NCBI GenBank assembly: GCA_902776305.1
Contig: CACYPS010000018.1
Span: 25,110-89,109 of the forward strand
Direction: 5' to 3'
Length of the DNA: 64,000 nt
Source: an uncultured Lachnospiraceae bacterium
GTDB taxonomy: Bacteria > Bacillota > Clostridia > Lachnospirales > Lachnospiraceae
This document shows, one piece after another, positions 660 through 18,254 of the stretch (position 1 is the first letter of the stretch; the number at the start of each line of letters is the position of its first letter). Position numbers and translations under genes: made by a program. The notes below the pieces were generated by a model. It was not told the origin of the DNA. It did no database searches and was given only the letters and a program-made list of their open reading frames with translations.

Positions 660-699
660 GAAACCGTCTATGTTAACCGTGATATGAGGGAGAGTGCAT

Positions 700-3743: not shown

Positions 3744-4862
3744 ATGAATAAAAGAAAAATGAGAGTCCTACTCGTCTCCGCAAAAGTGAGGGCGGGAGGA
3801 GAAGCCGCGCATGTTACCGCGCTGGCAAAAGAATTTATAAAAAAAGGCATAGATGTATCCCTTCTCTCCACAGATCCGACGGGGGGGATGATGGCAGGCA
3901 TTATTCCTGAGGATAAGCTTTTTTTCACGGAGTTCCGCAATCACAACCCGCTTCAGACAGCGATGAATACGGCCGCGATCCGGAAAGTCCTCTCGGAGCA
4001 CGCATTTGATATCATTCACTGTCACGGCAGAGACAATGCATTTGCTGTCAGAATGGCAGGTCCGAAACAGCCGTATGTCTATACGTGCCACTCCATGTCG
4101 GTGCAGACCGATTTTATGCATCGCATGTTGAACTCGACAGGAGACGCCGCGATTGCTGTTTCCGGGGATACAAAGGAGTTCATGATTCGCGAGCTGAAGA
4201 TACCGGAAGAAAAGATCACCGTGATAGAGAACGGCGTAGACCCGACGCAGCTTCGGAAGCTGACCGAAGGTGAAAAGCGCTGGTTGTATACAAATTATCT
4301 TATACCGGAAGGAAAGATCGTCGCTGCGATTCACGGGAGAATCGATCCGAGGAAAAACCATATTATGATCGGAAAAGCACTCGCAAATCTTCCGGAAGAT
4401 GAGAGGTCGAAATTCGTGATATTGTGCTCCGGTATCAGGGAGGTACCCGGATATGATCCGCTGGTTTCTCAGCTGAGAGAGCTTGGCGTGCTTCAGCAGT
4501 TCAGATTCACCGGGTGGACCGAGCCGAGAAATATTCTCGGCTGTGCGGATCTGCTTTTAGGTCCAAGTCAGACAGAAAGCTTCATGATGTCAGCCCTCGA
4601 AGGGTTTTTTATGGATATTCCGGTCATACGTTCCAAAACAGGAGGCTATTCCGAAATGAAGGATCTGTGCATCGGTATAGATGCCGATGATCTGAAAGGA
4701 TGGACGGAAATTCTTCACAGGGTAGCTGTCCGGGGGACAGATGATATGAAACCGATGGTCGACACGGCACATTCGGAGGCGCTCAGGCGGTTTACGTCTG
4801 AAGCGATGGCGGCTAAAGTATACCGGGTCTATCGGGAGGTCCTGAGAGGCCGGGGCAGGTAA
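3744..4862 (+). CDS. GT4-type glycosyltransferase
   Basis: This is a 372-residue, cytoplasmic or membrane-associated, GT-B fold glycosyltransferase that would add a sugar from a nucleotide donor to a growing surface polymer. The N-terminal Rossmann half starts VLLVSAKVRAGGEAAHV, followed by DIIHCHGRDNA and AIAVSGDTKEF. The C-terminal half has the family features VIENGVDP, HGRIDPRKNH, FTGWTEPRNILGCADLLLGPSQTESF and the donor-binding EGFFMDIPVIRS region, where the usual ExFG-type glutamate is E of ALEGF. The start codon lacks a clear Shine-Dalgarno sequence. It is the first gene of the plus-strand operon ending at 17879. Donor and acceptor sugars cannot be predicted. Confidence 0.85.
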   Translation: MNKRKMRVLLVSAKVRAGGEAAHVTALAKEFIKKGIDVSLLSTDPTGGMMAGIIPEDKLFFTEFRNHNPLQTAMNTAAIRKVLSEHAFDIIHCHGRDNAFAVRMAGPKQPYVYTCHSMSVQTDFMHRMLNSTGDAAIAVSGDTKEFMIRELKIPEEKITVIENGVDPTQLRKLTEGEKRWLYTNYLIPEGKIVAAIHGRIDPRKNHIMIGKALANLPEDERSKFVILCSGIREVPGYDPLVSQLRELGVLQQFRFTGWTEPRNILGCADLLLGPSQTESFMMSALEGFFMDIPVIRSKTGGYSEMKDLCIGIDADDLKGWTEILHRVAVRGTDDMKPMVDTAHSEALRRFTSEAMAAKVYRVYREVLRGRGR

Positions 4863-4919: not shown

Positions 4920-6029
4920 ATGAAGTATATAGCCAGGGAGACGGCATTCAGAGAAAATGAGAAGCGAACAGCCGGAGCAAAAGCCAGAGTCGATATCGAC
5001 AGGATCTGCACAGAGCAGCTTGGCTATACTCCTGTTGACATTGTATTCGATACAGCCAGATTTGAGGACCGAAATATTCTCGGACAGCTGGGAGAACACA
5101 GTGAAGCTTTACATGAGTGGGAAAGGAAGACAGCCCATCTTAAAAAAGGCGATCTGTTGCTCATCCAGTTCCCGCCTGTGAATCACAGTCTGATGCTTAG
5201 TAGACAGCTCAGTCGGTTGAAAGCCGAAGGAGTCTATCTCGTCGCTATTCTGCACGATGTGGAAATTCTGCGCGGCGCCAAGAGGAAGAATAAAAGCATC
5301 AAGAACCGCATGAGAAAGCACTTTGAGGAACAGTTATGTCTGGGTCATTTTGACCGCATAGTGGTCCACAACAAGGCCATGAAGGAAGCAGTAGCCGACC
5401 TGTGTGGCATTCCTGCGGGAAAGATGCGGAGTCTCGGCCTGTTCGATTATCTCTGCGGGGAAACGCGGAGCAGAGAGTTCGGTCGGGGCGTCGCCGTTGC
5501 CGGAAATCTGAGACCGGACAAGTCGGGTTACGCGTATCAGCTTCCGGGAAATATGAGGTGGAATCTGTACGGAATCCAGTTTTCCGGAAAGGCATTCCTG
5601 CCCGGAGATGAGACGGATCCGAAAAGCCCCGGAGTATACTATCATGGATCGTTCCTGGCGGATGAGATTGCGGACAGGATCGACGGGAGTTTCGGGCTGG
5701 TCTGGGACGGAGCCTCCATCGACACCTGCGAAGGTGTTTTCGGGGAGTATTTACGGTATAATAATCCCCATAAAACTTCCCTGTATCTTGCTGCGGGAAT
5801 GCCGGTCATCGTCTGGAAAGAGGCAGCGATAGCGGGATATATTTTGAAGGAAAACTGCGGGATTGCAGTCGAATCGATTGCGATTATCCCAAAGATACTT
5901 GAAGAAATGTCTGACGAAGAGTACCATATACTTGCGCAAAACGCCGAAAAGGTCGGTAGAAGACTTCGGCGGGGAGATTACACACGAAAGGTTTTGAGCG
6001 GGATTGAGAGCGAAATCTTATCTGTATGA
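4920..6029 (+). CDS. Gtf3-like sugar transferase
   Basis: This is a 369-residue glycosyltransferase of the Gtf3/galactofuranosyltransferase-like group. Recognisable blocks are LLIQFPPVNHSLMLSR, LVAILHDVE, FDRIVVHNKAM, the central AVAGNLRPDKSGYAYQLPG, FGLVWDGASIDTCEG and the very typical YNNPHKTSLYLAAGMPVIVW followed by AAIAGYI. Members use UDP-sugars to extend surface glycans, and some work in tandem with a partner transferase. It begins 57 bases after the GT4 gene and its end abuts the next membrane protein. No start-specific ribosome binding site is obvious. The acceptor is unknown. Confidence 0.8.
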   Translation: MKYIARETAFRENEKRTAGAKARVDIDRICTEQLGYTPVDIVFDTARFEDRNILGQLGEHSEALHEWERKTAHLKKGDLLLIQFPPVNHSLMLSRQLSRLKAEGVYLVAILHDVEILRGAKRKNKSIKNRMRKHFEEQLCLGHFDRIVVHNKAMKEAVADLCGIPAGKMRSLGLFDYLCGETRSREFGRGVAVAGNLRPDKSGYAYQLPGNMRWNLYGIQFSGKAFLPGDETDPKSPGVYYHGSFLADEIADRIDGSFGLVWDGASIDTCEGVFGEYLRYNNPHKTSLYLAAGMPVIVWKEAAIAGYILKENCGIAVESIAIIPKILEEMSDEEYHILAQNAEKVGRRLRRGDYTRKVLSGIESEILSV

Positions 6030-6045
6030 TAATAGTAAATATTCG

Positions 6046-7314
6046 ATGATGATCACACCGTCGGAGTTCATATTCTATCTGGGAGTAGGGGCGTATTTTA
6101 CACTCATGTTCCTCAGCACGACGATGTTTGCGGATATCCTGCCTCTGTCGAATCATACTCTGAGAAATGCCGTCCGATTCACTTGCTACGGATTTATAAT
6201 AGTGAAGATGATGCTGGCCGAAAAATTCACGATCAAAAGAATTGCGGTCTATGTGGCTATTGCTTTGCCCATCCTTATGTGTTATAGGGCTACGGGCTAT
6301 CTTTATGAACTTGATATGTTCATGCTCATCGTCGGGGCTCGCGGATTCAAGGCGAATCGAATTGTCAGTATGTATTTCTTTATGAGTCTTTTGCTAATCG
6401 CTGTAACACTGATCGCACTGGCAGCGGGAGTGATCGAGAATCGTACCTTTACCAGAACGGACAGCGATGTCATCCGAAATTCAGTAGGCTTCATATACCC
6501 TACAGACTTCGGCGCCAGAATCTTTTATACGATCCTTGCGTTCTGTTTAATGGTCGGTAAACGCTACAATCTTGCAATGTTAGCTGTCTTTTGTGTGATT
6601 TCCGCCCTGTTGACAATTTTCAGCGACGCCCGTCTGGATGCTGCACTGATCGTCATAGTGGGAATATTGTTTTACATCAATGCGAAGACCAGGTTCTTCA
6701 GGCGAAAGTGGATCGAGAGAATACTGATTATATCCGTTCCGTTTTTCTTTTTCCTGTCATATTTCGTGACGATGTCTTACAAGAAAGGGCCTTTCTTCAC
6801 TTTCCTCGACAGGATCCTGAGCAAGCGTCTTATGTACGGATACTATAATGTATGGTATACCGGAATTCATCCGTTCGGACGCTACATCTACCAGCAGGGA
6901 CACGGCGCACTGAATTACAGTGCGTGGGCCGGATACAACTTTGTAGACTGCGGATATCTTCAGGCACTCCTGCAGTACGGCTATATTCTGATGTTCTTCG
7001 TGTTGCTCATGTTCGTGCTGATCACTTATACGGCTATTCGGCGAGGACAGCATCACCTCGCGATCATCATTTTCATGATAGGACTTACGACCTGCGTAGA
7101 TCATCATTTTCTTGAGTTCTGGTATGATCCGTTCCCTCTGCTCATATTTTCCGTTATCCCGTATGCTCCGGGTTACAGGAAAATGAGTGCCGAAAAAGTT
7201 GAAGAACCGTCTGCTGAAGCAGAACAGGTCTATAAAGAAAAGCCTGCCCCGAAGGGCCTTTCACACAGTCATGATGTATGGGGCCAGCTGAATATGATAC
7301 AAAAAAGATATTGA
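6046..7314 (+). CDS. Polytopic membrane protein, O-antigen polymerase/ligase-like
   Basis: This is a hydrophobic protein of about 422 residues with roughly ten membrane helices and a charged cytoplasmic C-terminus. A periplasm-type loop near the middle contains HPFGRYIYQQGHGALNYSAW and NFVDCGYLQALLQYG, in the position of the large loop of Wzy/WaaL-type polymerases. Late in the protein, TTCVDHHFLEFWYDPFPLL resembles EpsG/Wzy-type ends. In context it would polymerise or transfer the glycan made by the two upstream transferases. Start choice is uncertain: ATG at 6046 is used because it directly precedes the first helix, but an in-frame TTG at 6004 overlapping the upstream gene is possible. Confidence 0.65.
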   Translation: MMITPSEFIFYLGVGAYFTLMFLSTTMFADILPLSNHTLRNAVRFTCYGFIIVKMMLAEKFTIKRIAVYVAIALPILMCYRATGYLYELDMFMLIVGARGFKANRIVSMYFFMSLLLIAVTLIALAAGVIENRTFTRTDSDVIRNSVGFIYPTDFGARIFYTILAFCLMVGKRYNLAMLAVFCVISALLTIFSDARLDAALIVIVGILFYINAKTRFFRRKWIERILIISVPFFFFLSYFVTMSYKKGPFFTFLDRILSKRLMYGYYNVWYTGIHPFGRYIYQQGHGALNYSAWAGYNFVDCGYLQALLQYGYILMFFVLLMFVLITYTAIRRGQHHLAIIIFMIGLTTCVDHHFLEFWYDPFPLLIFSVIPYAPGYRKMSAEKVEEPSAEAEQVYKEKPAPKGLSHSHDVWGQLNMIQKRY

Positions 7315-7343
7315 TAGCGGATGCATGTTCCGCGGGAGGATTT

Positions 7344-8216
7344 ATGTATAACGATGAAGTACAGAAAACTCTGAGAAAGCTGCAGCTGGCTGAGCTCAAC
7401 ATCATAAAACTGTTCATGAAGATCTGTGAGAAGGAACATCTGCGATACTTTATGATCGGCGGAACCATGCTCGGCGCGATCAGGCACAAAGGTTTTATTC
7501 CATGGGACGATGATGTCGATATCGGAATGCCCAGAGAGGATTATGATAGGCTGTTCGAACTTCTGAAGGACGGAACATACCTGCCGGAGAACTTCGAATA
7601 TCTGAATTATAAGATCAAAGACGATTATAAGAGATATTTCAGCCGGATCGTCGATAACCGTGTTCTGGTTTACAACGCATCCGGAGGAGAGGAGATCGTC
7701 GAAGCTGCATGGATAGACATTTTCCCGCTTGACGGATCCCCGAATAATTACATATTGAGGAATCTGCGCTACACATGGGTCATGTGGAAACGTCTCAGAT
7801 ACCACCTCTCTCTGATGGATACCATGGTCAACCTGAACAGGCCCGGCCGCCCGCTCTATCAGAGACTGATCATCGGATTCGCGAAACGGGTTCCGATCGG
7901 GCGCGGACGAGACTGTAAACAGATTCTCGACAATATCGATAAGGAACTCAAAAAGTATCGCTGGGCAGGCAGCTCCACGGCTGCCAATGTATTCGGTGCC
8001 TACGCTCACCGGGAGATGGTCCCGAAGGATGTGTGGGGCAGCAAACTGGCGCTGTATCCTTTTGAGGATGTTGAACTGCCGGGACCCGAGAACTACGATG
8101 CTTTCCTCAGCCGGTTCTACGGAGAGTATATGACACCGCCGCCGGAGGGTAACAGGGATAAGCACAATATTCGAAAAATCGAGTTCCTGTCGCCGGAAAA
8201 TGGAGAGGATACATAA
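7344..8216 (+). CDS. LicD-family phosphotransferase
   Basis: This is a 290-residue LicD-type nucleotidyltransferase-fold enzyme. The diagnostic block is IGGTMLGAIRHKGFIPWDDDVDIGMPREDYDRLF, holding the metal-binding DDDVD. It is followed by the second conserved stretch AWIDIFPLDGSPNN. The family moves a phospho-alcohol from a CDP donor to a surface glycan: phosphocholine in LicD and ribitol-5-phosphate in the fukutin/FKRP relatives. The start is ATG 7344 behind GGGAGG, not an upstream ATG overlapping the previous gene. Genes at 21818-23519 look able to make a CDP-polyol, so polyol-phosphate transfer is a reasonable guess. The acceptor is unknown. Confidence 0.88.
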   Translation: MYNDEVQKTLRKLQLAELNIIKLFMKICEKEHLRYFMIGGTMLGAIRHKGFIPWDDDVDIGMPREDYDRLFELLKDGTYLPENFEYLNYKIKDDYKRYFSRIVDNRVLVYNASGGEEIVEAAWIDIFPLDGSPNNYILRNLRYTWVMWKRLRYHLSLMDTMVNLNRPGRPLYQRLIIGFAKRVPIGRGRDCKQILDNIDKELKKYRWAGSSTAANVFGAYAHREMVPKDVWGSKLALYPFEDVELPGPENYDAFLSRFYGEYMTPPPEGNRDKHNIRKIEFLSPENGEDT

Positions 8217-10007
8217 ATGGCAAATGGACTGAGGGAACTCCTCGGCGACCTCATGAAGAAGGACGGAAAACTGTTCATCACGACAATCATTCTGATGGTC
8301 ATTTCATCCTTTCTTCAGGGCGTTACAATTCTTATGCTTGTTCCGATCATGAATATTATGGAAGTGGGGGAGGCCGCGGATCTGCCGTTCGGCCTCTCCC
8401 GGTTCCTGTCCTTTCTTCTCAGTCTGCCGTTCGGTTTGAGACTCTTTGTTCTTCTTTTCTGCTTTTTCATTATCATGACGATGCAGGCCGTTTCCGTCAG
8501 GATGGTAAAAGTCAGGTCGATGCAGCTTGCTTCGGGATTTACTGCCGACATGAGAGAAGAGTACTATGATGAGCTCATGAGCAGCAGCTGGGAGAGATAT
8601 TCATCCGATAATCAGTCTGTTCATACGGATGCTCTGATCACACAGATTCCCCGATTAACGACGACAATCAATTATTTTATGTCGATGATGACAAATGTTG
8701 TGACCGCTCTCATCGACCTTATCATAGCGTTTTCCCTGTCTGCTTCTCTTTCGGGATTCGTCATTGTCGTCGGTGGCTTATTCTTCCTGTTTTTCAGGCG
8801 TTTCACAAAGAGATCGGAAACACTAGGTAACAGGCTGAGCAGACAGTATGAGGCTTTCACGGATGAGGTACAGACGCAGCTCTCCGGATTTAAGGAAATC
8901 AGGAGCTACGGCATTGCCGAAGAGGAGTCCCGAAGGTTCAGAGATATAACGGAAACATTCCGGGATCTGATGATTGAGGCTACGGGAAATGTATCGGCGC
9001 CGCGCATGATCTCCACGATAGGGGAGGCTGTTCTTATAGCCATTATCTTCTTCTGCGCTGAGTACTGGCTTCATATCGAGACGTCGAGCATGATTGTCGT
9101 ACTGTATGTCTTTTATCGGCTTTGGCCGCTTCTGCCCGCAACGCAGGAGTACTTGCAGGGCATCAAAGAGACGCTGCCCGCCTACAGAGTCATGCAGGAT
9201 GTGAGAAAAAAGGATTCAGAGGATAGCAGAACGGCTTGCATCCGGAAAATAAAACAGGATAATGCCTCCGATGAAAGTACAGGCGGGAAGGAAGATACCG
9301 GCGATCAGGCGGTGGCGTTTGATCACGTCAGTTTTCGATATAAGGATGCAGCTGCGGACGCTCTGCATGATGTAAGTTTTAAGATCAGGCGACATACGAT
9401 CACTGCCTTCACCGGCCCGTCCGGCGCCGGAAAAAGTACGGTCGTAGACCTTATTCTGGGATTTCTTACGCCATCCGGCGGGAATATTTACATACAGGCA
9501 GAAGACGGCGAGGTTGCCTATGTCCCGCAGAGTCCAATGATCCTGACAGCGTCCGTCCGCGAGAACATAGCGCGTTTCCACCCGGGTATTTCGGACGGGG
9601 AGATCGTGGAGGCTCTTGTAAGGACGGAAGCCATGGGCTTTCTTGAGAGAAAGTGTACCGAAGGACAGTCACCGCTCGACCTTCGCATGGGAGATGACGG
9701 AGTCATGTTCTCGGGAGGCGAGGTGCAGAGAATCGTGCTTGCCCGCGCAATTGCCGGTACGCCGGGGTTGCTGATCCTTGATGAAGCCACATCGGCGCTG
9801 GACTTCGGAAACGAGAAGTTGATCGCCGGGCTGCTTCAAAGGTTGAAGAGCGAGATGACGATTATTCTCGTTGCGCATCGTGTGTCGACAATTCAGTCGG
9901 CAGATGATATACTCGTCATTGAAAACGGACAGCTTACGGAACAGGGGAGTGCCGGAGAACTTTTGAAGAATCCGGAGAGTTACCTGACTAAAATGAAGGA
10001 CGGATAA
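8217..10007 (+). CDS. ABC exporter (TMD-NBD half transporter), lasso D-type context
   Basis: This is a 596-residue half transporter that would work as a homodimer. About six membrane helices occupy residues 15-330. After a charged linker comes the ATPase domain with Walker A GPSGAGKST (about 400-408), Q-loop in AYVPQSPMI, signature FSGGEVQRIVLARAI (about 497), Walker B LLILDEATSALD and switch His in LVAHR. The signature has F instead of the usual L. It starts immediately after the licD stop codon and is followed four bases later by the kinase gene. In lasso-peptide clusters the same gene type (D) exports the mature peptide and confers immunity. Glycolipid export remains an alternative here. 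Confidence 0.88.
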   Translation: MANGLRELLGDLMKKDGKLFITTIILMVISSFLQGVTILMLVPIMNIMEVGEAADLPFGLSRFLSFLLSLPFGLRLFVLLFCFFIIMTMQAVSVRMVKVRSMQLASGFTADMREEYYDELMSSSWERYSSDNQSVHTDALITQIPRLTTTINYFMSMMTNVVTALIDLIIAFSLSASLSGFVIVVGGLFFLFFRRFTKRSETLGNRLSRQYEAFTDEVQTQLSGFKEIRSYGIAEEESRRFRDITETFRDLMIEATGNVSAPRMISTIGEAVLIAIIFFCAEYWLHIETSSMIVVLYVFYRLWPLLPATQEYLQGIKETLPAYRVMQDVRKKDSEDSRTACIRKIKQDNASDESTGGKEDTGDQAVAFDHVSFRYKDAAADALHDVSFKIRRHTITAFTGPSGAGKSTVVDLILGFLTPSGGNIYIQAEDGEVAYVPQSPMILTASVRENIARFHPGISDGEIVEALVRTEAMGFLERKCTEGQSPLDLRMGDDGVMFSGGEVQRIVLARAIAGTPGLLILDEATSALDFGNEKLIAGLLQRLKSEMTIILVAHRVSTIQSADDILVIENGQLTEQGSAGELLKNPESYLTKMKDG

Positions 10008-10010
10008 TGT

Positions 10011-10928
10011 ATGTACCGATACAGAGCTTTTGGCTTCAACATTGAATCAGAGTTTGAAATTGCACAGATGCTGCCGGCGGAGTTTCCCGATGACCGGTGT
10101 GATGTACACATCCGATATGGGGAAGTCAGTGCGGATATGATTAAGGATCCGCTGCAGACCTATCTCGATGCAAGATTCGGGATAGACGAGATGTGGAGCA
10201 ATCTTGATATCGCTGAGATCTATGTGGGACACGGCAGAGATATCATTGTGAAGCTTGTTCCGGGAAGAGAGGAAGAGGAAGGGCTTCTGCAGGCATACAT
10301 TACCGGGCTGGCTTTCGGAGCGATCATGCATCAGAGGAAACAGATACCCATGCACGGGAGCTGTGTTCAGAAAGACGGCAGAGCAGTTCTCTTTACCGGA
10401 GTTTCAGGAGCGGGAAAGTCTTCCATCGCCGCGGAGGCAATCCGGCAGGGTTATCGGTTGGTCACGGATGATGTTACGCCGGTATCGATCCGGAACGGGT
10501 TGGTCGTCGCTGAGCCGTCCTTCCCGCAGCAGAAGCTTTGGGAGGATGCGGTCGAGCGAGGCGGCGTCGAGGATAAGACTGACCACAGGATATATGACGA
10601 GAATGACCGGACAAAGTTCGCCATGAATGTAGATGACGCTTTCCTGAACGAGGAGGCGGTCCTGTGCGGTATTATTCAACTGATCCCGAAAGAAGGAACG
10701 AGGAATGGCAGACCGCTGATTGAGGAAGTCACGGGCCTGGAAAGAGCTGTCCTCATGCAGCTCCATACATACAGAAAATATATGCTGGTCGACAACGAGA
10801 GCAGACAGAGGCATTTTCAGAGCTGCGCTGATATTGCAAAACAATTAAAGATAGCCCACATGTTCCGCTATGAAGACACATCCGAAGCGGAAATGCTTGC
10901 GGCAGCGGAGGAATTTATCAATGAGTGA
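10011..10928 (+). CDS. HPr kinase-like (lasso-peptide kinase type) protein
   Basis: This 305-residue protein has a C-terminal HprK-like kinase fold. The P-loop GVSGAGKSS lies at about residues 130-138, followed by GYRLVTDDVTPV, the double-aspartate motif of this fold. It lacks the usual context of true HprK and instead sits directly before a PqqD gene. That arrangement is known for the K genes of paeninodin-like lasso clusters, whose products phosphorylate a serine of the precursor. The ribosome binding site AAGGACGGA precedes the ATG. It overlaps the PqqD gene by 8 bases, suggesting coupled translation. The N-terminal 100 residues are similar to the non-catalytic region of these kinases. The target is unknown. 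Confidence 0.8.
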   Translation: MYRYRAFGFNIESEFEIAQMLPAEFPDDRCDVHIRYGEVSADMIKDPLQTYLDARFGIDEMWSNLDIAEIYVGHGRDIIVKLVPGREEEEGLLQAYITGLAFGAIMHQRKQIPMHGSCVQKDGRAVLFTGVSGAGKSSIAAEAIRQGYRLVTDDVTPVSIRNGLVVAEPSFPQQKLWEDAVERGGVEDKTDHRIYDENDRTKFAMNVDDAFLNEEAVLCGIIQLIPKEGTRNGRPLIEEVTGLERAVLMQLHTYRKYMLVDNESRQRHFQSCADIAKQLKIAHMFRYEDTSEAEMLAAAEEFINE

Positions 10929-11190
10929 AAAAAAGTATACGAGAAAAGCTGACATCATCACTGCGGACATGGACGGGGAGCTCGTCATGATGGATATTAC
11001 GTCCGGAAAATACTACAATCTCGGCAGGACAGGCGGTACGATCTGGAATCTACTGGAATCACCGAAGACACTGGACGAGCTGGTTGATGCGCTCACCGAT
11101 AAGTATGATGTCGACCGCGCGACCTGCAAGGCGCAGGCGGAAGAGTTTATGAAAACAGGACTTGAACACGGCCTGTTCTTTATGGAATAA
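10921..11190 (+). CDS. PqqD-family RiPP recognition element (lasso B1 type)
   Basis: This is an 89-residue PqqD-like protein. The central MDGELVMMDITSGKYYNLGRTGGTIWNLL motif followed by TLDELVDALTDKYDV is diagnostic. The fold is a winged-helix RiPP recognition element that grips the leader of a ribosomal precursor peptide and hands it to the processing enzyme. ATG 10921 is preceded by GGAGGAA and overlaps the kinase gene. As in split-B lasso clusters, the next gene encodes the transglutaminase-like B2 protein, four bases downstream. Its presence implies that a peptide substrate exists somewhere. Confidence 0.9.
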   Translation: MSEKKYTRKADIITADMDGELVMMDITSGKYYNLGRTGGTIWNLLESPKTLDELVDALTDKYDVDRATCKAQAEEFMKTGLEHGLFFME

Positions 11191-11193
11191 GAT

Positions 11194-11625
11194 ATGAAAA
11201 GTATGTTGAAGTTTATAAGCTACCCGCCCGCACTTAAAAAATTATGCGTGCGGGTTCTTCTGCTTGCAGTGTATTATAAGCTGCTCATTCGATTTCGGAA
11301 ATTCTCCGAGATAGCGGGCAGGCTGGGCAATGCGGGCAGGGTGACTTCCGAAGATCCGGTCCCGGACGGACAGAGGGAATACATTTTGCAGGTTCGCAGG
11401 GCGATCAGAGCGGTCGTTCCGAAACTGCATTTTTCAAATGAATGCCTTGTATGCGCATTCACCGCAAAAAAAATCCTTGGGGATATCCCGTCGACAGTCT
11501 ACATGGGCGTCGCGAAAAAGAAAGACGGCGGTATGAAGGCTCACGCATGGACGAGAGTCGGAGACATCATTGTTACAGGTGAGGAGGGGAGAGAGCGGTT
11601 CACGGTCACCGCTACATTTGCATGA
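11194..11625 (+). CDS. Transglutaminase-like lasso B2-type protease
   Basis: This is a 143-residue B2-type cysteine protease homologue. In lasso biosynthesis B2 cleaves the leader from the precursor together with B1. The catalytic cysteine is in ECLVCAFTAKKILG and the catalytic histidine in KAHAWTRVG, preceded by the typical IPSTVYMGVAKKKDG. A hydrophobic N-terminal segment (about residues 17-30) may associate with the membrane. Its stop codon overlaps the start of the nucleotidyltransferase gene (ATGA). All visible catalytic positions are intact, so the enzyme looks functional. Confidence 0.85.
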   Translation: MKSMLKFISYPPALKKLCVRVLLLAVYYKLLIRFRKFSEIAGRLGNAGRVTSEDPVPDGQREYILQVRRAIRAVVPKLHFSNECLVCAFTAKKILGDIPSTVYMGVAKKKDGGMKAHAWTRVGDIIVTGEEGRERFTVTATFA

Positions 11626-12767
11626 GTATGGATATTTCGAGAGAACAGAGATTTGTCTATTTATGTTCGATTTTTCCGATGCCGAAGAAGTATCTGAAGA
11701 AGGCGCAGGAAATTTTTAAATCCGGCCTTGATCTGGATGAGGCTGTCAGAATCGCCTATGTCCATCAGGTCTACAGCCTTTTTGCAAAAAATCTGAAGGA
11801 TCATTTTCCGGAGGCCGGCGAAAACGAAGCCGTAAAGACCATGTATGTGGCAGCGAACAGGAACCGCTTTGATTCTATGAAGCAGACGGGCGAGCTTGTC
11901 AGGCTTTATCGGGTCTTCACGGACAGAGGCGTCAGAACGGTGCCTCTGAAAGGCGTCCTTCTGTCGAAAATGCTTTACGATGATCCGACGTTCCGATATG
12001 CGACGGATATTGATCTGCTGATTCGCCGCGAAGATTTTGACAGGGCGAGGGAAATCCTCGCGGAGCAGGGTTATACGTCCAACAAGGAGTATGTTTCGAC
12101 CGCAAAACAAATGGAGGTCTACGAGAGCAAATTCCACGATTATGACTTTGAGTCGAAGGACGGCACTAAGCTCGAACTGCACTGGAGAGTGGCGGACATC
12201 AAAGCCGCAGAGATCCTGACATGTGATAATGCAGACTCGACGGTTTCATTCTTCGGCCAGGAACTGCCGACGTACACTCCGGAAGAGTGGCTCATCTACC
12301 TTGCTTATCACGGTGTTCACCATGGCTATATGTGGATGAAATGGCTGACGGATTTCGATACCCTGGCAAGGCACGCAAGTGTAGACAGGAAGGCAGCCAT
12401 GGAACTTGCCGCGGAGATGGGACTTGACTGGGCGCTTCGGGCGTCTTATGCGATGGCTTATCTGGTGTCTGGGGGGGACGAAAACGCAGTATCCGTGAGC
12501 CGTCTTACTGAGGAGATGGCCGGCGTCCTCACGAAATCGAACGGACAGAAAGACGATGTCTTCATCGCGTATCGCTCGTTCCTTGATACCGAGCTCGAGC
12601 GCAGAGGACTGCTCACCGACAAGGAGAAAACCCGAAGAATAGACCCCTCGGAGAAAGATTTTGAGACGTTCCATTTCAGCGATCGGTTTTTCTTCCTCTA
12701 TTATGTTGTGAGAGGTCCCTACAAATTGTACCGGGTTCTGAAAGGAAAGATTTTTCCGGACAAATAA
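11622..12767 (+). CDS. NTP_transf_5-type nucleotidyltransferase
   Basis: This is a 381-residue protein of the uncharacterised nucleotidyltransferase group common in lasso and other RiPP clusters. The polymerase-beta-like active site is recognisable in RTVPLKGVLLSKMLY followed by RYATDIDLLIRREDFDRA, with the metal-binding DID/D pair. A later conserved stretch is KLELHWRV, then EEWLIYLAYHGVHHGYMWMKWLTDFD. In characterised lasso clusters such genes accompany kinase genes and are thought to modify the peptide further. The substrate here is unknown. The start ATG overlaps the upstream stop; a second ATG six bases downstream is also possible. Confidence 0.8.
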   Translation: MSMDISREQRFVYLCSIFPMPKKYLKKAQEIFKSGLDLDEAVRIAYVHQVYSLFAKNLKDHFPEAGENEAVKTMYVAANRNRFDSMKQTGELVRLYRVFTDRGVRTVPLKGVLLSKMLYDDPTFRYATDIDLLIRREDFDRAREILAEQGYTSNKEYVSTAKQMEVYESKFHDYDFESKDGTKLELHWRVADIKAAEILTCDNADSTVSFFGQELPTYTPEEWLIYLAYHGVHHGYMWMKWLTDFDTLARHASVDRKAAMELAAEMGLDWALRASYAMAYLVSGGDENAVSVSRLTEEMAGVLTKSNGQKDDVFIAYRSFLDTELERRGLLTDKEKTRRIDPSEKDFETFHFSDRFFFLYYVVRGPYKLYRVLKGKIFPDK

Positions 12768-12798
12768 TTTTACCGGCCAAATGAAAGATTTGTAATAC

Positions 12799-13608
12799 AT
12801 GAAAGATTCACGTAAAGAGATAGGAATATGGCCTGCAAGGGTCCTCTTTGTTCTTTATCTGCTGTTTTTTGCAACATATACAATTTTTATGAGAACTGTC
12901 GGTCCCAGAAGATGGAATCTCATGCCTTTCTGGGAGCTCCGGTATTCTCTTGCCGGCGGACTGGCCACGTTTCAGTTCCTGATCATCAATATTTTGCTCT
13001 GTATCCCGATGGGGTATTTCGGTGCCGCCGCATTCAGGAATACAAAAAAGTGGAAGATCGTTCTGCTTATCGCGTGTTATTCAACAACGATCGAACTCAT
13101 TCAGCTCATTACAGCAAGAGGATTGTGCGAATTCGACGACGTCTTTAATAATACTCTGGGCGGTGCGATCGGCATACTCTGCTTCTACGGGCCGCTTGAG
13201 ATCTTTGACGCCATGGCAGTAACGATTGTGTACGGTGCGGTAATGATCATCTTGGAATTCAGGCAGTCCGGGAGTTTTTCCTTCGGACGGGTGCCCGGGG
13301 TTCTTACCAAGACCTATGTCCTCTACATACCTGCCCACGCTGTTATATCCTATTACATTTTCAGACTTTTTGACATGTATGGAGATCTGCGCGGTAACAG
13401 AGGTGTGAAGGCAGCGGCGGTCATCATGCTCGCAAATATGCTGAGCGTGCTTTCGAAGTTTCTGGTACAGTATTTCACTGCCTATCATTTTTCGGCCCCG
13501 ACGCTATACTATCTGATCGGATTTCTTCTGCAGTGTTTACTGACCATGTATGTGAGGAAAAATTACATCTGCAGGACTCCGGATAAGAGTCACGGAGGGA
13601 ATATATGA
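12799..13608 (+). CDS. VanZ-like membrane protein with extra C-terminal helices
   Basis: This is a 269-residue polytopic protein. The N-terminal half has the VanZ/phosphotransbutyrylase-like pattern: NLMPFWELRYSL, NILLCIPMGYFGAA, then TTIELIQLITARGLCEFDDVFNNTLGGAIG. The C-terminal half (about 145-255) adds further helices beyond the usual VanZ length, including a YFTAYHF loop. VanZ proteins occur in glycopeptide tolerance loci and surface-polymer operons, but their biochemistry is poorly known. The 3' end overlaps the cyclase gene by four bases. No clear Shine-Dalgarno sequence precedes the ATG. Confidence 0.75.
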   Translation: MKDSRKEIGIWPARVLFVLYLLFFATYTIFMRTVGPRRWNLMPFWELRYSLAGGLATFQFLIINILLCIPMGYFGAAAFRNTKKWKIVLLIACYSTTIELIQLITARGLCEFDDVFNNTLGGAIGILCFYGPLEIFDAMAVTIVYGAVMIILEFRQSGSFSFGRVPGVLTKTYVLYIPAHAVISYYIFRLFDMYGDLRGNRGVKAAAVIMLANMLSVLSKFLVQYFTAYHFSAPTLYYLIGFLLQCLLTMYVRKNYICRTPDKSHGGNI

Positions 13609-15509
13609 GTGCTATTTATGTGATGATCCATGACACACATTCGGATTTTCGAACAATCCGGCCCTACGGCAGGATCCTGCACGACGGCCTTACGTCGTAC
13701 GGTCTCGGAGGAGCTTCGGAACCGTGTGAAGGGGAGACGAGTTTTGAGAGCGGGGATTGCAGGATCATTATGGGAAGTATCCAGAATAACGCCCATGCGG
13801 GCGTTCCCGCAACGTCCTGTGTCGTTGAGACCGATCAGCACCTTGCTGTCTGCGATGCGATGATCTATAACAGAAAAAGCTTTCCGGGGCAGGATATGCT
13901 GAGCGACGGTGAGCTGCTTGTAAGAACATATGAGAGGGAGGGACTTTCAGGGCTTCGCAGTCTGAGCGGAGATTTTGCTGCCGTCCTGATCGATAAGGAA
14001 AACGGGCGGATCTTTCTCATCCGTGATCACATGGGTATAAGACCGCTCTATATCATGCAATCGAAGCATTATGTGACAATTTGCACGGATTACAGGCCTT
14101 TTTTCAGGCTGCCGGAAAATCAGATCACGATCAATGAGGAGCGCCTCTATGAGTATCTCACAATGGGAATCGTGGCGAGCAGAACAGAGACGCTCTTTGC
14201 AAATATTCTCAAATCCGAGGCCGGTGCAGTCACCCGTATGACCCCGAATGGGAAAATTATAGCATCCGATACATACTGGACCCCCGGCATGCGGAAAGTG
14301 CCTGAGGACAAATGGGATGTACAGTATGAGAAAATATACGCTAAACTGATTCGGGATGCAGTGAGGAACCGGGTGGACGCTGTAGGAGGAGAGGCAATCG
14401 GTGCTGAATTCTCCGGCGGTCTTGACTCGGGAATCATTGTCTCACTGCTCGATGAATATGCACAGGAAAACGGTCACGAACTTCCTTTGCTTGCCACCTG
14501 GTCGCCTTCCGAGGAGGAATATCCGATCCGTGAGCAGAGGAATGAAGTGATCCGCGACGAGCGTGAAGTTATAAAGAAGTTCTGCGGGGACAAGGGAAAT
14601 TCCTGCATCTACAGACCTCGCTGCGATGCAGAGGATCCGGAAGTATATCTGAAAAATACAGAGAGAAAAGATATCTGCGAGTTCGACGCCGATATTATCA
14701 TGTACACGATGAAAGCCCTGTCGGGGAGAGGCATAAGGACTGTATTTTCCGGCTGGGGCGGAGATGAGGCCGCGACGATGCGGTTCGGTCCCTCCGGTCT
14801 TCTGGAATCCGGTGAGTTAAGGGCATTTCTTCATGAAGCTTCTTATGCTGCAGGTAAGAATCCGAAGAAGTATCTCGGATTCATCAAGCGGGCTCTAACG
14901 GCAGTTCGTGACAGTCACGCTCCGTGGGACGGCCGTGCGGTGAACGGATGGCAGTTCAACATCGCAAAAGATGAATATGCACACAGGATCCTCGGCAAAA
15001 GAGAAAAGAAGTATAACTACTTTGGATGGAATCCTGTCGAAAATCTGCTTACGGGAGGTATGGAGTCCAGGACGGCAATTGCCGCAGCTTCGGGCGCCGA
15101 TATGGGGATGGTCTACATGTTTCCGATGCTTGACCCGCTCCTTATCGATTATGCTTTGAATGTCCCGCGTCGCCTATATATGAGGGACGGCAGAAGAAGG
15201 CTGCTCCCGCAGAAGGCGCTGGAGGATATCGTGCCCGGTTATCTTACGAAGTTCAGCGGGGAATCCAATGTCGAAAAACTCGACACCGGACGTATGGATT
15301 TCTATTATGAGGTCGCCGAGGAGACACAGAGCCGGACGGATGAGATTATCTTAGCAAGACTTGACAGAGAGCTGTTCGCTGAATATGTTGATTTCGATGC
15401 GATTGAGCGCAATCTGTTACGTGCGGATAATACTGTTGAGAGAAATGTCCTGCGATCCATTATGAGAACGCTCTATAAGATGCAGCTTCTTTTGAAAGAG
15501 TGCAGGTAA
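13605..15509 (+). CDS. Asparagine synthetase-like lasso cyclase (C-type)
   Basis: This is a 634-residue homologue of glutamine-hydrolysing asparagine synthetase. The N-terminal Ntn-like half is retained (SLSGDFAAVLIDKENGRIFLIRDHMGIRPLY), but the protein begins Met-Ser-Ala, so the nucleophilic Cys2 needed for glutaminase activity is missing. The AMP-forming half has the PP-loop FSGGLDSG (about residue 268) and FSGWGGDEA (about 381). Loss of Cys2 with an intact synthetase site is typical of lasso macrolactam synthetases (McjC type), which adenylate an Asp/Glu side chain for attack by the peptide N-terminus. ATG 13605 is preceded by GGAGGGA. Function in a non-peptide amide transfer onto glycan cannot be excluded. 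Confidence 0.85.
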   Translation: MSAIYVMIHDTHSDFRTIRPYGRILHDGLTSYGLGGASEPCEGETSFESGDCRIIMGSIQNNAHAGVPATSCVVETDQHLAVCDAMIYNRKSFPGQDMLSDGELLVRTYEREGLSGLRSLSGDFAAVLIDKENGRIFLIRDHMGIRPLYIMQSKHYVTICTDYRPFFRLPENQITINEERLYEYLTMGIVASRTETLFANILKSEAGAVTRMTPNGKIIASDTYWTPGMRKVPEDKWDVQYEKIYAKLIRDAVRNRVDAVGGEAIGAEFSGGLDSGIIVSLLDEYAQENGHELPLLATWSPSEEEYPIREQRNEVIRDEREVIKKFCGDKGNSCIYRPRCDAEDPEVYLKNTERKDICEFDADIIMYTMKALSGRGIRTVFSGWGGDEAATMRFGPSGLLESGELRAFLHEASYAAGKNPKKYLGFIKRALTAVRDSHAPWDGRAVNGWQFNIAKDEYAHRILGKREKKYNYFGWNPVENLLTGGMESRTAIAAASGADMGMVYMFPMLDPLLIDYALNVPRRLYMRDGRRRLLPQKALEDIVPGYLTKFSGESNVEKLDTGRMDFYYEVAEETQSRTDEIILARLDRELFAEYVDFDAIERNLLRADNTVERNVLRSIMRTLYKMQLLLKECR

Positions 15510-15545
15510 TACTTGATAAATGCTTTCCGCAAAGGAGCAGAGAGA

Positions 15546-17879
15546 TTGAAATCTAATAATAAGAAACTGTATTATGAACTGAATAATTATTATCTGATCG
15601 CATTTGTACTGAATTTTGTCGCCGGTTTCTTTTCATTTGCATGGACAATCATGACACAGGGCGGTCTGTTTTCGCTGGCAGGTGATTTTAATGCGCAGCA
15701 GATCACATTTGCAATGGCTGCCAACGACGCTATCAAATCCGGGAATATCATCTATGACTGGTCGCTCGATCTCGGATCGAACTTCATCGGCGGTATGATG
15801 TTTTATATCCTGGGCAACCCGTCGTTCTGGCTTTCCATGCTGTTCCCGTCCGGGATGTTCATGTATGTCGTCGGATGGATCTATATGCTGAAATATGCGG
15901 TCGCCGGACTTACATCATATGCGTATCTGGAGCGGTACACTCGTGACAAAAAGAATGCTCTGATCGGCTCGATGCTCTATGCGTTCTGCGGATATATGGC
16001 GGAGGATCTGTTGTTCTATCACTTCCATGACGTCGTCGCTCTTTTTCCGCTGCTCATGCTCACGTTCGACGGCCTTGTGCTCGAGAAGAAGAGAGGACCG
16101 TTCATTTTCGCGGTCGCGATTAACGCTCTTGTGAATTACTTTTTTCTGGTCGGCGAGATCATCTTCATGGCGGCATATTACATCCTGAGATATCTCATCC
16201 CGGGATTCAATTTCAAGACGCACATCAGGAGACTGCCTCAGATTCTGATCGAAGGTATTCTTGGAGGTATGCTCGGATGTTTCCTGCTCCTTCCGGCCTT
16301 TTTATTCACGATACAGAATCCGAGAGTCGAAGTAGATTATACGGGTTCGACATCACTCGTATACACGGCTGAGCGATATCTGTATATCCTGAAAGGACTT
16401 GTGTTTCCGGGCGAGGTGATGTCACACCAGAGTGCAGTCATTAAGAGTAACTTTTCATCCTGCAACGCCTATATTCCCGTCGTCGGACTGGTTCTCGTCA
16501 TCGCGTTTGTCAGAATGAGACCGCGCCACTGGCTGACGAGAATGCTGACATTTTGTCTGGTCTTCGCAGTCGTTCCGATTCTTAACGCTTCGTTCTCACT
16601 GTTCGCCGGGGTTTACTGCCGCTGGTATTATATGGCGGCTCTGATGATGGTACTCGCGTCCGTGATGATTCTGGAGAGATGGCAGGCGGAAAACACGTCG
16701 AGGAGGAAGGTGAATCCGTTCCGAAGCGTGAAAAGACAGATCACGGCAGGGACGATTATCTGGGGAGGGATAACTCTTGCATTCATCCTGTTCCTCGTAT
16801 TGGTCAGATGGAACGACACTGAGCCGAGCAAAATCTACCGGATGGATATATTTGTCATCTGGAGTATCGTCTCTCTTGCGGGAACCTTCATGACATGGTT
16901 CACGCTCTGCTATCTGAAGAAATACCAGAGAACCATCCTGCTTTTTACGATTTATATATGCGCGATTTTTACGACGACTCTGACGATTTATCTGTACCAG
17001 CAGGCGCACGGTCTGAACGCGGATCAGGTGCATGACAAGATCGTGACCAGCGCACGGCTCGATTATGAGGGCCCGGAATACCGATACAGCAGCAGAGATA
17101 ATATTGAAACACTGTGCCATAATCATAAGGCGAGCGCGAATTTCTGCAGCACAGTATCCGGATCTATCTTCAGGTTCTATGAATCGCTCGGACTTGAGCG
17201 CGATGTGAAGAGTCCGGAAGCTCCGAAAGGGCTCTACAACCTGATTTCGGCAAAATATGATATAACGACGGATCCGAGAGCCGATCAGGATCCGATTCAG
17301 ACGGAGAACGGTAAGTATCGCAGTTACTATGTCTATGAAAACAACAGTATTCCTCCGATCGGTTTTACATACGATACGTATATGACTGCGTCAGACTTCG
17401 AGACGACGTATTCGGATGACAGGGCTATTCTCATGCTGAAGACACTGATCATTCCCGATGACATGGAGGATGTGGTGTCACGAACCCTGAGATCTTACGA
17501 TTCATTCACTGATGGATATGCGACGGAGGAGTACCTGAACGCGATCAGCAGCGCGCACCTAAAAGAGTGTGCGAGGGATGTGTCCGAGACGACGTCCACT
17601 TACGAATGTACGATTGATGCAGACGCCGACAAGTACGCTTTCTTTTCCATCCCGAATGATTCCGGGTGGAGCGCAACGGTGAACGATGAGCCCGTTGACA
17701 TCATGGATATTAACGGCTTTATGGCGGTCCCGGTCAATGAGGGTGAGAACCGGATTCGATTCTTCTATAAGGTGCCGGGGCTTGCGGAGGGCTGTATGTT
17801 GACGGCGGGAGGGGCGATTGCGATATTGCTGTATATATTTGTGGTGCCGTTGGTTTGGGGGCGGAAGAAGAGAAGATGA
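15546..17879 (+). CDS. YfhO-family membrane glycosyltransferase
   Basis: This is a YfhO-family protein of about 777 residues: twelve or more membrane helices with GT-C-like loops, then a large extracytoplasmic domain (about residues 490-745) and a final helix ending KKRR. Family signatures include GDFNAQQITFAMAANDAIKSG, the loop DLGSNFIGGMMFY and the late SIPNDSGWSATVNDEPVDI / NGFMAVPVNEGENRIRF block. YfhO and its relatives glycosylate lipoteichoic acid or other wall polymers outside the membrane using lipid-linked sugars. The start is a TTG at 15546 spaced 8 bases after AAAGGAG; an earlier TTG at 15513 is less well supported. It closes the surface-polymer operon and is followed at once by repeat A1. 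Confidence 0.85.
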   Translation: MKSNNKKLYYELNNYYLIAFVLNFVAGFFSFAWTIMTQGGLFSLAGDFNAQQITFAMAANDAIKSGNIIYDWSLDLGSNFIGGMMFYILGNPSFWLSMLFPSGMFMYVVGWIYMLKYAVAGLTSYAYLERYTRDKKNALIGSMLYAFCGYMAEDLLFYHFHDVVALFPLLMLTFDGLVLEKKRGPFIFAVAINALVNYFFLVGEIIFMAAYYILRYLIPGFNFKTHIRRLPQILIEGILGGMLGCFLLLPAFLFTIQNPRVEVDYTGSTSLVYTAERYLYILKGLVFPGEVMSHQSAVIKSNFSSCNAYIPVVGLVLVIAFVRMRPRHWLTRMLTFCLVFAVVPILNASFSLFAGVYCRWYYMAALMMVLASVMILERWQAENTSRRKVNPFRSVKRQITAGTIIWGGITLAFILFLVLVRWNDTEPSKIYRMDIFVIWSIVSLAGTFMTWFTLCYLKKYQRTILLFTIYICAIFTTTLTIYLYQQAHGLNADQVHDKIVTSARLDYEGPEYRYSSRDNIETLCHNHKASANFCSTVSGSIFRFYESLGLERDVKSPEAPKGLYNLISAKYDITTDPRADQDPIQTENGKYRSYYVYENNSIPPIGFTYDTYMTASDFETTYSDDRAILMLKTLIIPDDMEDVVSRTLRSYDSFTDGYATEEYLNAISSAHLKECARDVSETTSTYECTIDADADKYAFFSIPNDSGWSATVNDEPVDIMDINGFMAVPVNEGENRIRFFYKVPGLAEGCMLTAGGAIAILLYIFVVPLVWGRKKRR

Positions 17880-17896
17880 ATGAGTAAATGGAAACT

Positions 17897-18097
17897 AAAC
17901 TTCCCACGTGTGGTTTTTTCTCAGTCTCATCATAAAAAAATGCATCGTCGGGACGCTCTCGCTCGGTCTCGCTGGCAGCGGTACTAATAAATTTTCAGCG
18001 CTTACGCTTGAAAATTTAAAGTACCGGCCGCTCGACGACGCCCTCCGATTGCATTTTTAATGATTCGACTGTGCTTTAGAAACGAAGTGGGAAGTTG
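17897..18097 (+). repeat. Dispersed palindromic repeat A, copy 1
   Basis: This element of about 200 bp is bounded by AACTTCCCAC and its inverse GTGGGAAGTT. Inside are nested inverted repeats: AAAAATGCA/TGCATTTTT, GGTACT/AGTACC, and AAATTTTCAGCG against CGCTTGAAAATTT around a small loop. The same sequence recurs at 25502 and 49286. It starts 18 bases after the yfhO stop codon. Confidence 0.9.
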
Positions 18098-18118
18098 AGT
18101 TTAAATACGAAAGAATAA

Positions 18119-18152
18119 GGAGCTGCTCGCACGGTGGTGCGAAGCAACTCCT
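18119..18152. terminator. Hairpin between converging genes
   Basis: AGGAG.TGCT.GCAC pairs with GTGC..AGCA.CTCCT around a short loop. It sits between the 3' ends of the yfhO operon (plus) and the acidic-protein gene (minus), but no strong U-tract follows, so termination is uncertain. Confidence 0.45.
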
Positions 18153-18254
18153 ATTGCGTTCTTGATTTACTTTTACTTATAGTAAAAATATACCGACTCT
18201 AACAGAGTATAGGAAAGTGATTTTTAATCTTTCATAAATAGGTTCAATACCGTC

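Follow-up and report, generated by a model that had tools for sequence, protein, structure and literature searches.

The stretch of DNA analyzed here (the window, 64,000 nucleotides) is G000:C18:25110-89109 of the draft genome of a gut Lachnospiraceae bacterium (G000; 4.08 Mb, 128 contigs). On its plus strand, a lasso peptide maturation set shares one operon with wall-glycopolymer genes, and no precursor gene lies among them. Here, we report the gene content and conservation of this operon, together with a tandem pair of putative precursor genes on another contig (C3). Comparative evidence leads us to read the operon, with a probability of about 0.8, as the maturation half of a split lasso pathway of the paeninodin/pseudomycoidin type, whose precursors would come from a separate two-gene unit. 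The pathway itself is of a known kind; its split layout is unusual.

The paeninodin cluster comprises PadeA, K, C, B1, B2, and D, and the pseudomycoidin precursor is adjacent to its cluster; we know of no glycan operon for pseudomycoidin. Published systems are cited by their PubMed Central (PMC) identifiers. The terminal Ser is the phosphorylation target of PadeK and PsmK, and hexoses on the phosphoserine require PsmN, with the question of whether PsmN itself transfers the sugar left open (PMC9266682, review). Capsular loci of Bacilli are reported to contain paeninodin-like clusters, whose role is given as unknown (PMC13381572), so glycan embedding as such has a precedent. There is also precedent for lasso clusters in which no precursor was found, since a rumen survey counts 23 incomplete clusters in its abstract (PMC7533575).

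Genomes and searches

Comparisons used 42 genomes of the genus and wider sets of 99 genomes and 299 family genomes (own genome included). Two of the operon-bearing genomes are incomplete (G001, 89%; G003, 64%). A precursor profile was built from 16 rumen precursors chosen out of table 3 of PMC7533575 and run against the six genomes that carry the kinase, with four Bacilli genomes as controls. The known precursor was recovered in 4/4 controls (E, 2.4e-10 to 0.34), the best of which resembles one row of the profile, so the profile is only modestly sensitive. For G094, the B2 locus (L022) was compared by tblastn and leader motif alone, and one short contig of G003 (L017) was covered by a single leader-motif scan.

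The operon and its proteins

The operon reads, in window positions, as follows.

694..3522, plus strand: LytR-CpsA-Psr (LCP) family protein, 942 amino acids (PF03816, E 1.6e-15, residues 607-762), with a syntenic homologue in relatives
3744..4862, plus strand: GT1, GT4-type glycosyltransferase (PF13439, E 9.7e-25), syntenic at 51-90% identity
4920..6029, plus strand: GT2, divergent glycosyltransferase (weak PF13439 match, under cut-off), with orthologues and paralogues within the genus
6004..7314, plus strand: putative Wzy-like membrane protein (no Pfam match)
7278..8216, plus strand: LicD-family phosphotransferase (PF04991, E 6.6e-42)
8217..10007, plus strand: ABC exporter, MsbA/HepA-like (PF00005, PF00664; best NCBIfam matches HepA and MsbA, both under cut-off)
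10011..10928, plus strand: HprK-like kinase K, PadeK/PsmK-like (PF07475, E 1e-9)
10870..11190 (start possibly 10921, judging from the sequence), plus strand: PqqD-family RiPP recognition element B1, leader-binding protein (NF033536)
11194..11625, plus strand: B2 leader peptidase (NF033537)
11622..12767, plus strand: NTP_transf_5 protein N, PsmN-like (PF14907, E 2.2e-48)
12799..13608, plus strand: VanZ-like membrane protein (PF04892, E 3.9e-20)
13605..15509, plus strand: AsnB-like macrolactam cyclase C with an SGGLDS PP-loop and without Cys2 (PF00733; NF033535)
15513..17879, plus strand: YfhO family membrane protein (PF09586, E 2.1e-64), syntenic in all four operons reaching that far

The LCP protein heading the operon is a candidate wall-glycopolymer ligase, and the ABC protein is probably the lasso exporter. 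The original prediction, made from the letters of the window, listed six of these genes (exporter, kinase, B1, B2, N, and cyclase); they are real, co-directional, and closely packed, and the VanZ-like gene among them had been overlooked. The glycosyltransferases, LicD, and YfhO that it named as neighbors are likewise in place; the set is preceded by LCP, two glycosyltransferases, the putative polymerase (Wzy-like), and LicD and followed by YfhO. The widest gap within the set is 31 bases, which bears out its remark that the gaps are too small for a precursor. At locus L020, the GT1-GT2 gap holds GATCGGTAAGACACA-like short repeats; in the window, the intergenic stretch 3' of yfhO (17890-18250) has an inverted-repeat look, with similar letters after YfhO in G022 (L019).

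Family models and aligned residues support the assignments. B1 exceeds the lasso_PqqD_Bac cut-off (NF033536; 96.2 versus 80 bits), and its solved relatives, the best of which is a lasso RRE, include 9x90 (E, 1.9e-15; named as a lasso PqqD chaperone) and TbiB1 (5v1u; E, 9.4e-12). B2 exceeds the lasso_biosyn_B2 cut-off (NF033537; 67.9 versus 33 bits), and the Cys and His reported earlier as intact are Cys84 and His117, invariant in 6/6 B2 proteins of the genus and retained in 5/5 Bacilli relatives. Kinase residues His115, Lys136, Asp153, and Asp154 are invariant in the alignment and would correspond to the published His-Lys-Asp-Asp motif of PMC9266682; identity to the kinases of five Bacilli loci is 29-33%. 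The KG and DxD residues of N and the PP-loop of the cyclase are also conserved. Loss of Cys2 with the PP-loop kept, singled out previously, was seen again and is not odd, because all five Bacilli cyclases checked likewise lack Cys2: each has an M-S-A-I N terminus, with the longest frame beginning further upstream in two. The five solved relatives of the cyclase are four asparagine synthetases and one hydroxyamidotransferase.

G000 has one lasso-type cyclase and one B1 and one B2 over cut-off. A B2-like gene on contig C59 (L002, G000:C59:4358-7579, transglutaminase-like) was considered and set aside; it passed PF13471, scored 29.3 versus 33 bits with the lasso B2 model, and had no lasso neighbors in view. 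Two further weak PqqD-type matches, L041 (G000:C3:206508-206765, in a 415-residue frame) and L046 (on C65), belong perhaps to other systems of ribosomally synthesized and post-translationally modified peptides (RiPPs).

Conservation of the operon

Four other species of the genus have the complete LCP-to-YfhO gene order, at protein identities of 83-96% (G022), 55-80% (G001, with VanZ unmatched in its operon), and 35-74% (G025 and G018); in G003, the operon is divided between two short contigs. Lasso-type kinases were matched at E <1e-180 in 6/42 genomes of the genus, and the matches of the other genomes were at E 1e-11 or weaker. Wzy-like relatives at ≥39% identity over nearly the full length occur in exactly seven of the 42, namely, the six kinase-bearing genomes and G019, with other matches at ≤30%. 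B2 was over cut-off in seven of the 99 genomes, six of them in the genus, and was found in 9/299 family genomes, own included.

Co-occurrence of lasso and glycan genes in relatives, proposed earlier as a check, is thus real and conserved, with the embedding already published for Bacilli (PMC13381572). GT2 paralogues lie in six other glycan loci (L117-L120, L122, and L123), none of which contains a match to K, B1, B2, N, or C, and relatives of GT1, GT2, LicD, and the Wzy-like protein are absent from the fetched stretches of eight B2 loci in other genera. A contig scan with two short kinase patterns, of limited sensitivity, gave 10 loci (five in Lachnospiraceae metagenome-assembled genomes [MAGs] and five in Bacilli), and on this basis the fixed lasso-glycan union was observed only in this clade.

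No precursor at the operon

A precursor inside the gene cluster, a usual but not a defining trait of lasso systems, was not found here. Neither the operon nor its flanks contained a precursor-like frame when scanned with the leader motif, which matched three frames in other parts of the window and, in G018 and G025, an internal stretch of the Wzy-like protein. Short frames in the LCP-GT1 and GT1-GT2 gaps (five genomes) and in the N-VanZ and post-YfhO gaps (two genomes) carried the leader in no case. In 5/5 Bacilli loci, the leader-motif scan located a precursor immediately upstream of the kinase gene, so failure of the motif does not explain the lack of an adjacent precursor here. When the motif was loosened slightly, six of the eight other-genus loci had a leader-motif frame, and L140 and L142 (6 kb) had none. 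L140 (G198) also holds two B2 genes <10 kb apart.

The precursor pair on contig C3

The rumen-precursor profile matched two frames in G000, at C3:100826-100894 (E, 8.8e-4) and C3:100535-100603 (E, 0.016). They encode MERWTAPEIHELNVQETA-GGQSTMPIECECGCHCRGGAS and MERWEIPAIQEMNVEETA-GGHYEDVIENECAHVPFAS, where the hyphen marks the probable cut, assigned from the rule of Thr at -2 (PMC4289311). The pair is on a different contig from the operon and, summing distances to contig ends, at least ~125 kb from it. Tandem pairs were also found in G022, G018, and G025 (weaker member, E 0.003-0.02), so that precursors were recovered in 4/6 kinase-bearing genomes with a best E per genome of 4.9e-5 to 8.8e-4.

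These precursors share the leader pattern MERWxxPxIxExNVxETA, followed by a core with Gly1, Glu9, and a C-terminal Ser. W4, P7, V14, T17, A18, G19, and Glu27 (core position 9) are invariant in 12/12 precursors, and the C-terminal Ser is present in 8/8 paired precursors and 11/12 overall. The C3 pair thereby has the general features of lasso precursors: a [Y/W]xxPx[LVIAFY] leader motif, as given in PMC13381572, Thr at -2, Gly or Ala at core position 1, and Asp or Glu at core positions 7-9. An HprK-like kinase and a precursor C-terminal Ser, which mark the paeninodin/pseudomycoidin type, are both present. A CxCxCxC tail on the first precursor is retained in four species.

The pair is syntenic in the four species, with EamA, TcdA, and AlaDH as common neighbors. 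A Shine-Dalgarno-like sequence precedes every start (2/8 starts are TTG). In all four species, aligned TTGACT and TATACT boxes lie ahead of the two genes; G000 also has a T-tailed hairpin 3' of them. Over both genes, G000 and G022 differ by 9 synonymous versus 3 non-synonymous changes (synonymous divergence [dS], 0.228; non-synonymous divergence [dN], 0.017); for G000 and G018, dS is 1.29 and dN is 0.198. The pair is under purifying selection.

The original prediction had offered a precursor encoded elsewhere as one of two explanations, and this pair, conserved on another contig, answers to it. The opposite notion, that an adjacent precursor persists in relatives and was lost only here, holds in part: in G019, one precursor follows a cyclase gene at a distance of <100 bases, but the pair is unlinked in four species, which rules out a loss confined to this genome.

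Co-occurrence of operon and precursors

A profile made from the pair itself (E up to 0.1) matched in 5/42 genomes, namely, the four that are its source (G000, G018, G022, and G025) and G019. Counted strictly by the lasso kinase, precursors occur in 4/6 versus 1/36 genomes (Fisher p 6.4e-4). If G019 is added to the operon-bearing genomes, an after-the-fact assignment, the figures are 5/7 versus 0/35 (p 2.5e-5). Both tests are uncorrected for phylogeny. Sites around EamA were inspected in 4 of the 35 operon-less genomes (5-8 kb each): FKBP-lipoprotein and EamA were matched in G027, TcdA and EamA in G011, and EamA alone in two, and no leader-motif frame was found around EamA in any of the four.

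G019 has the genes from LCP through ABC on a single contig (some matches being split), two cyclases, and four dispersed precursors, two of which share a contig with one cyclase, the close neighbor mentioned above being downstream of that cyclase. One precursor stands beside an FKBP lipoprotein gene related to that of G000. Dispersed precursors may be a habit of the genus. Among the G019 precursors (L082, L087, L088, and L089), leaders are similar and cores differ, and one with a core of ~11 residues may be decayed. The G019 operon contig (L121 1-190) ends in a repeated stretch straight after the ABC gene.

Several results weigh against the split-pathway reading. G001 and G003 carry the operon, yet the pair's profile found no precursor in either even at E up to 10, the rumen profile gave a single match in G001 (E, 0.23, inside a 4,597-residue frame) and none in G003, and the neighboring EamA was not found at E 1e-20 in either assembly. 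In G019, with its precursors and two cyclases, searches for lasso-type K, B1, and B2 found none, which may be because its operon contig ends in a repeat after ABC. The best NCBIfam match of the cyclase is the lasso cyclase model NF033535, but at 126 bits versus a cut-off of 525. Consensus scans at the pair barely exceed shuffled sequence (promoter, 4 versus 1.9; terminator, 1 versus 0.7). The precursor contig itself has a weak, below-cut-off PqqD match, ~106 kb from the pair. Lastly, all five named relatives are MAGs of Lachnospiraceae (for three, the titles give goat or sheep ileum as the source), and the genome itself is a 128-contig draft.

Proposed route and comparison with known systems

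The analysis establishes which genes are present, the conservation of their active-site residues, a syntenic precursor pair under selection, and its co-occurrence with the operon; every chemical step that follows is deduced by homology. The two precursors would be made from the separate two-gene unit on the other contig, and B1 would bind their WxxPxI leader. By analogy with PadeK and PsmK, K would phosphorylate the C-terminal Ser of the core, and N may add a sugar to the Ser phosphate as PsmN suggests; this step is the least certain because the related LppN had no activity in a heterologous host (PMC13381572). B2 would then cleave after the leader Thr-Ala, C would join Gly1 to Glu9 to close the ring, and the ABC protein would export the product.

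The operon resembles paeninodin clusters in K, B1, B2, C, and an exporter and in a W-leader precursor whose C-terminal Ser is the kinase target; it differs in its unlinked precursor, its gene order, and its fixed embedding in a wall-glycan operon. Pseudomycoidin (PMC9266682) shares K with an NTP_transf_5-type N, there tied to hexoses on the phosphorylated terminal Ser. The Bacilli capsule-embedded clusters and those for linear polyphosphorylated peptides (LPPs) share the capsular-locus setting of the lasso set and an RRE, kinase, NTP transferase, and MsbA-like exporter; unlike the present system, they are described in PMC13381572 with an in-cluster precursor, and LPPs with a signal-peptidase-like leader peptidase and no cyclase. 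Rumen lasso clusters have the leader MKxWxxPxxxELxIxxTA and nearby HprK-like, PqqD, and nucleotidyltransferase genes, but the complete ones hold the precursor in the cluster (PMC7533575). The ring acceptor here is Glu9, versus mostly Asp in rumen cores (PMC7533575 and PMC13289728). In open-licence PMC text, where absence is weak evidence, we found no account of lasso precursors that are unlinked from their cluster and syntenic across species.

Sharing of an operon by the lasso set and wall-glycopolymer genes suggests a cell surface role. An extension compatible with the split pathway is that the lasso peptide is carried covalently on the glycopolymer through a C-terminal Ser-phosphate-sugar made by K and N and is fixed to the wall by LCP. 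None of these enzymes is known to link peptide and polymer, the dedicated exporter points to a free product, and the glycan genes could merely share regulation. In its favor are the fixed order of K and N with GT1, GT2, Wzy-like, LicD, YfhO, and LCP, the co-occurrence of the Wzy-like orthologue with lasso genes, purifying selection on the cores, and the phosphate and then hexoses that PsmK and PsmN put on the terminal Ser of pseudomycoidin (PMC9266682). We regard this extension as possible but unlikely. Equally tentative is the idea that the pair serves as a building part of the cell surface, matured by the operon-bound set, phosphorylated and glycosylated on its last Ser, joined to polymer by sugar-phosphate, and separately switchable through its own precursor locus.

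That other enzymes act on the C3 pair, which would then have nothing to do with the operon, is improbable: the two are physically unlinked in a draft genome and the weak PqqD match shares the contig of the pair, but the lasso-type cyclase of the operon is the only one found in the genome, as are its B1 and B2 among matches over cut-off, and operon and precursors co-occur. The original prediction had also considered a set re-purposed, without a lasso precursor, to attach an amine or peptide to a polymer. No adjacent precursor was seen in the operon loci scanned, and none was found anywhere in G001 or G003; however, 4/6 kinase-bearing genomes have a pair with a fitting leader, ring acceptor, and kinase-target Ser, no operon-less genome has the pair, and the re-purposing idea, now unnecessary, strikes us as very improbable. 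An LPP product is just as hard to credit: its clusters are found in capsule loci and have in common with the operon an RRE, an HprK-like kinase, an NTP transferase, and an MsbA-like exporter (PMC13381572), but their core has a SipW-like peptidase and no cyclase as described, whereas the operon has B2 and a cyclase and no signal peptidase among the genes scanned, B1 matches 9x90 far better than 9x8z (E, 0.0022; presumably an LPP protein), and the leaders here are of the WxxP...ETAG form rather than the LPP form YxxPxVLxHQxIxFET.

Precursor searches limited to the neighborhood of B and C genes would call split systems such as this one precursor-less. Two named precursors, found by profile and supported by synteny, selection, and co-occurrence, can now be tested. 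The fixed union of a wall-glycan operon with genes for a Ser kinase and an NTP transferase linked to sugars makes the role of paeninodin-type peptides a testable question of surface polymers.

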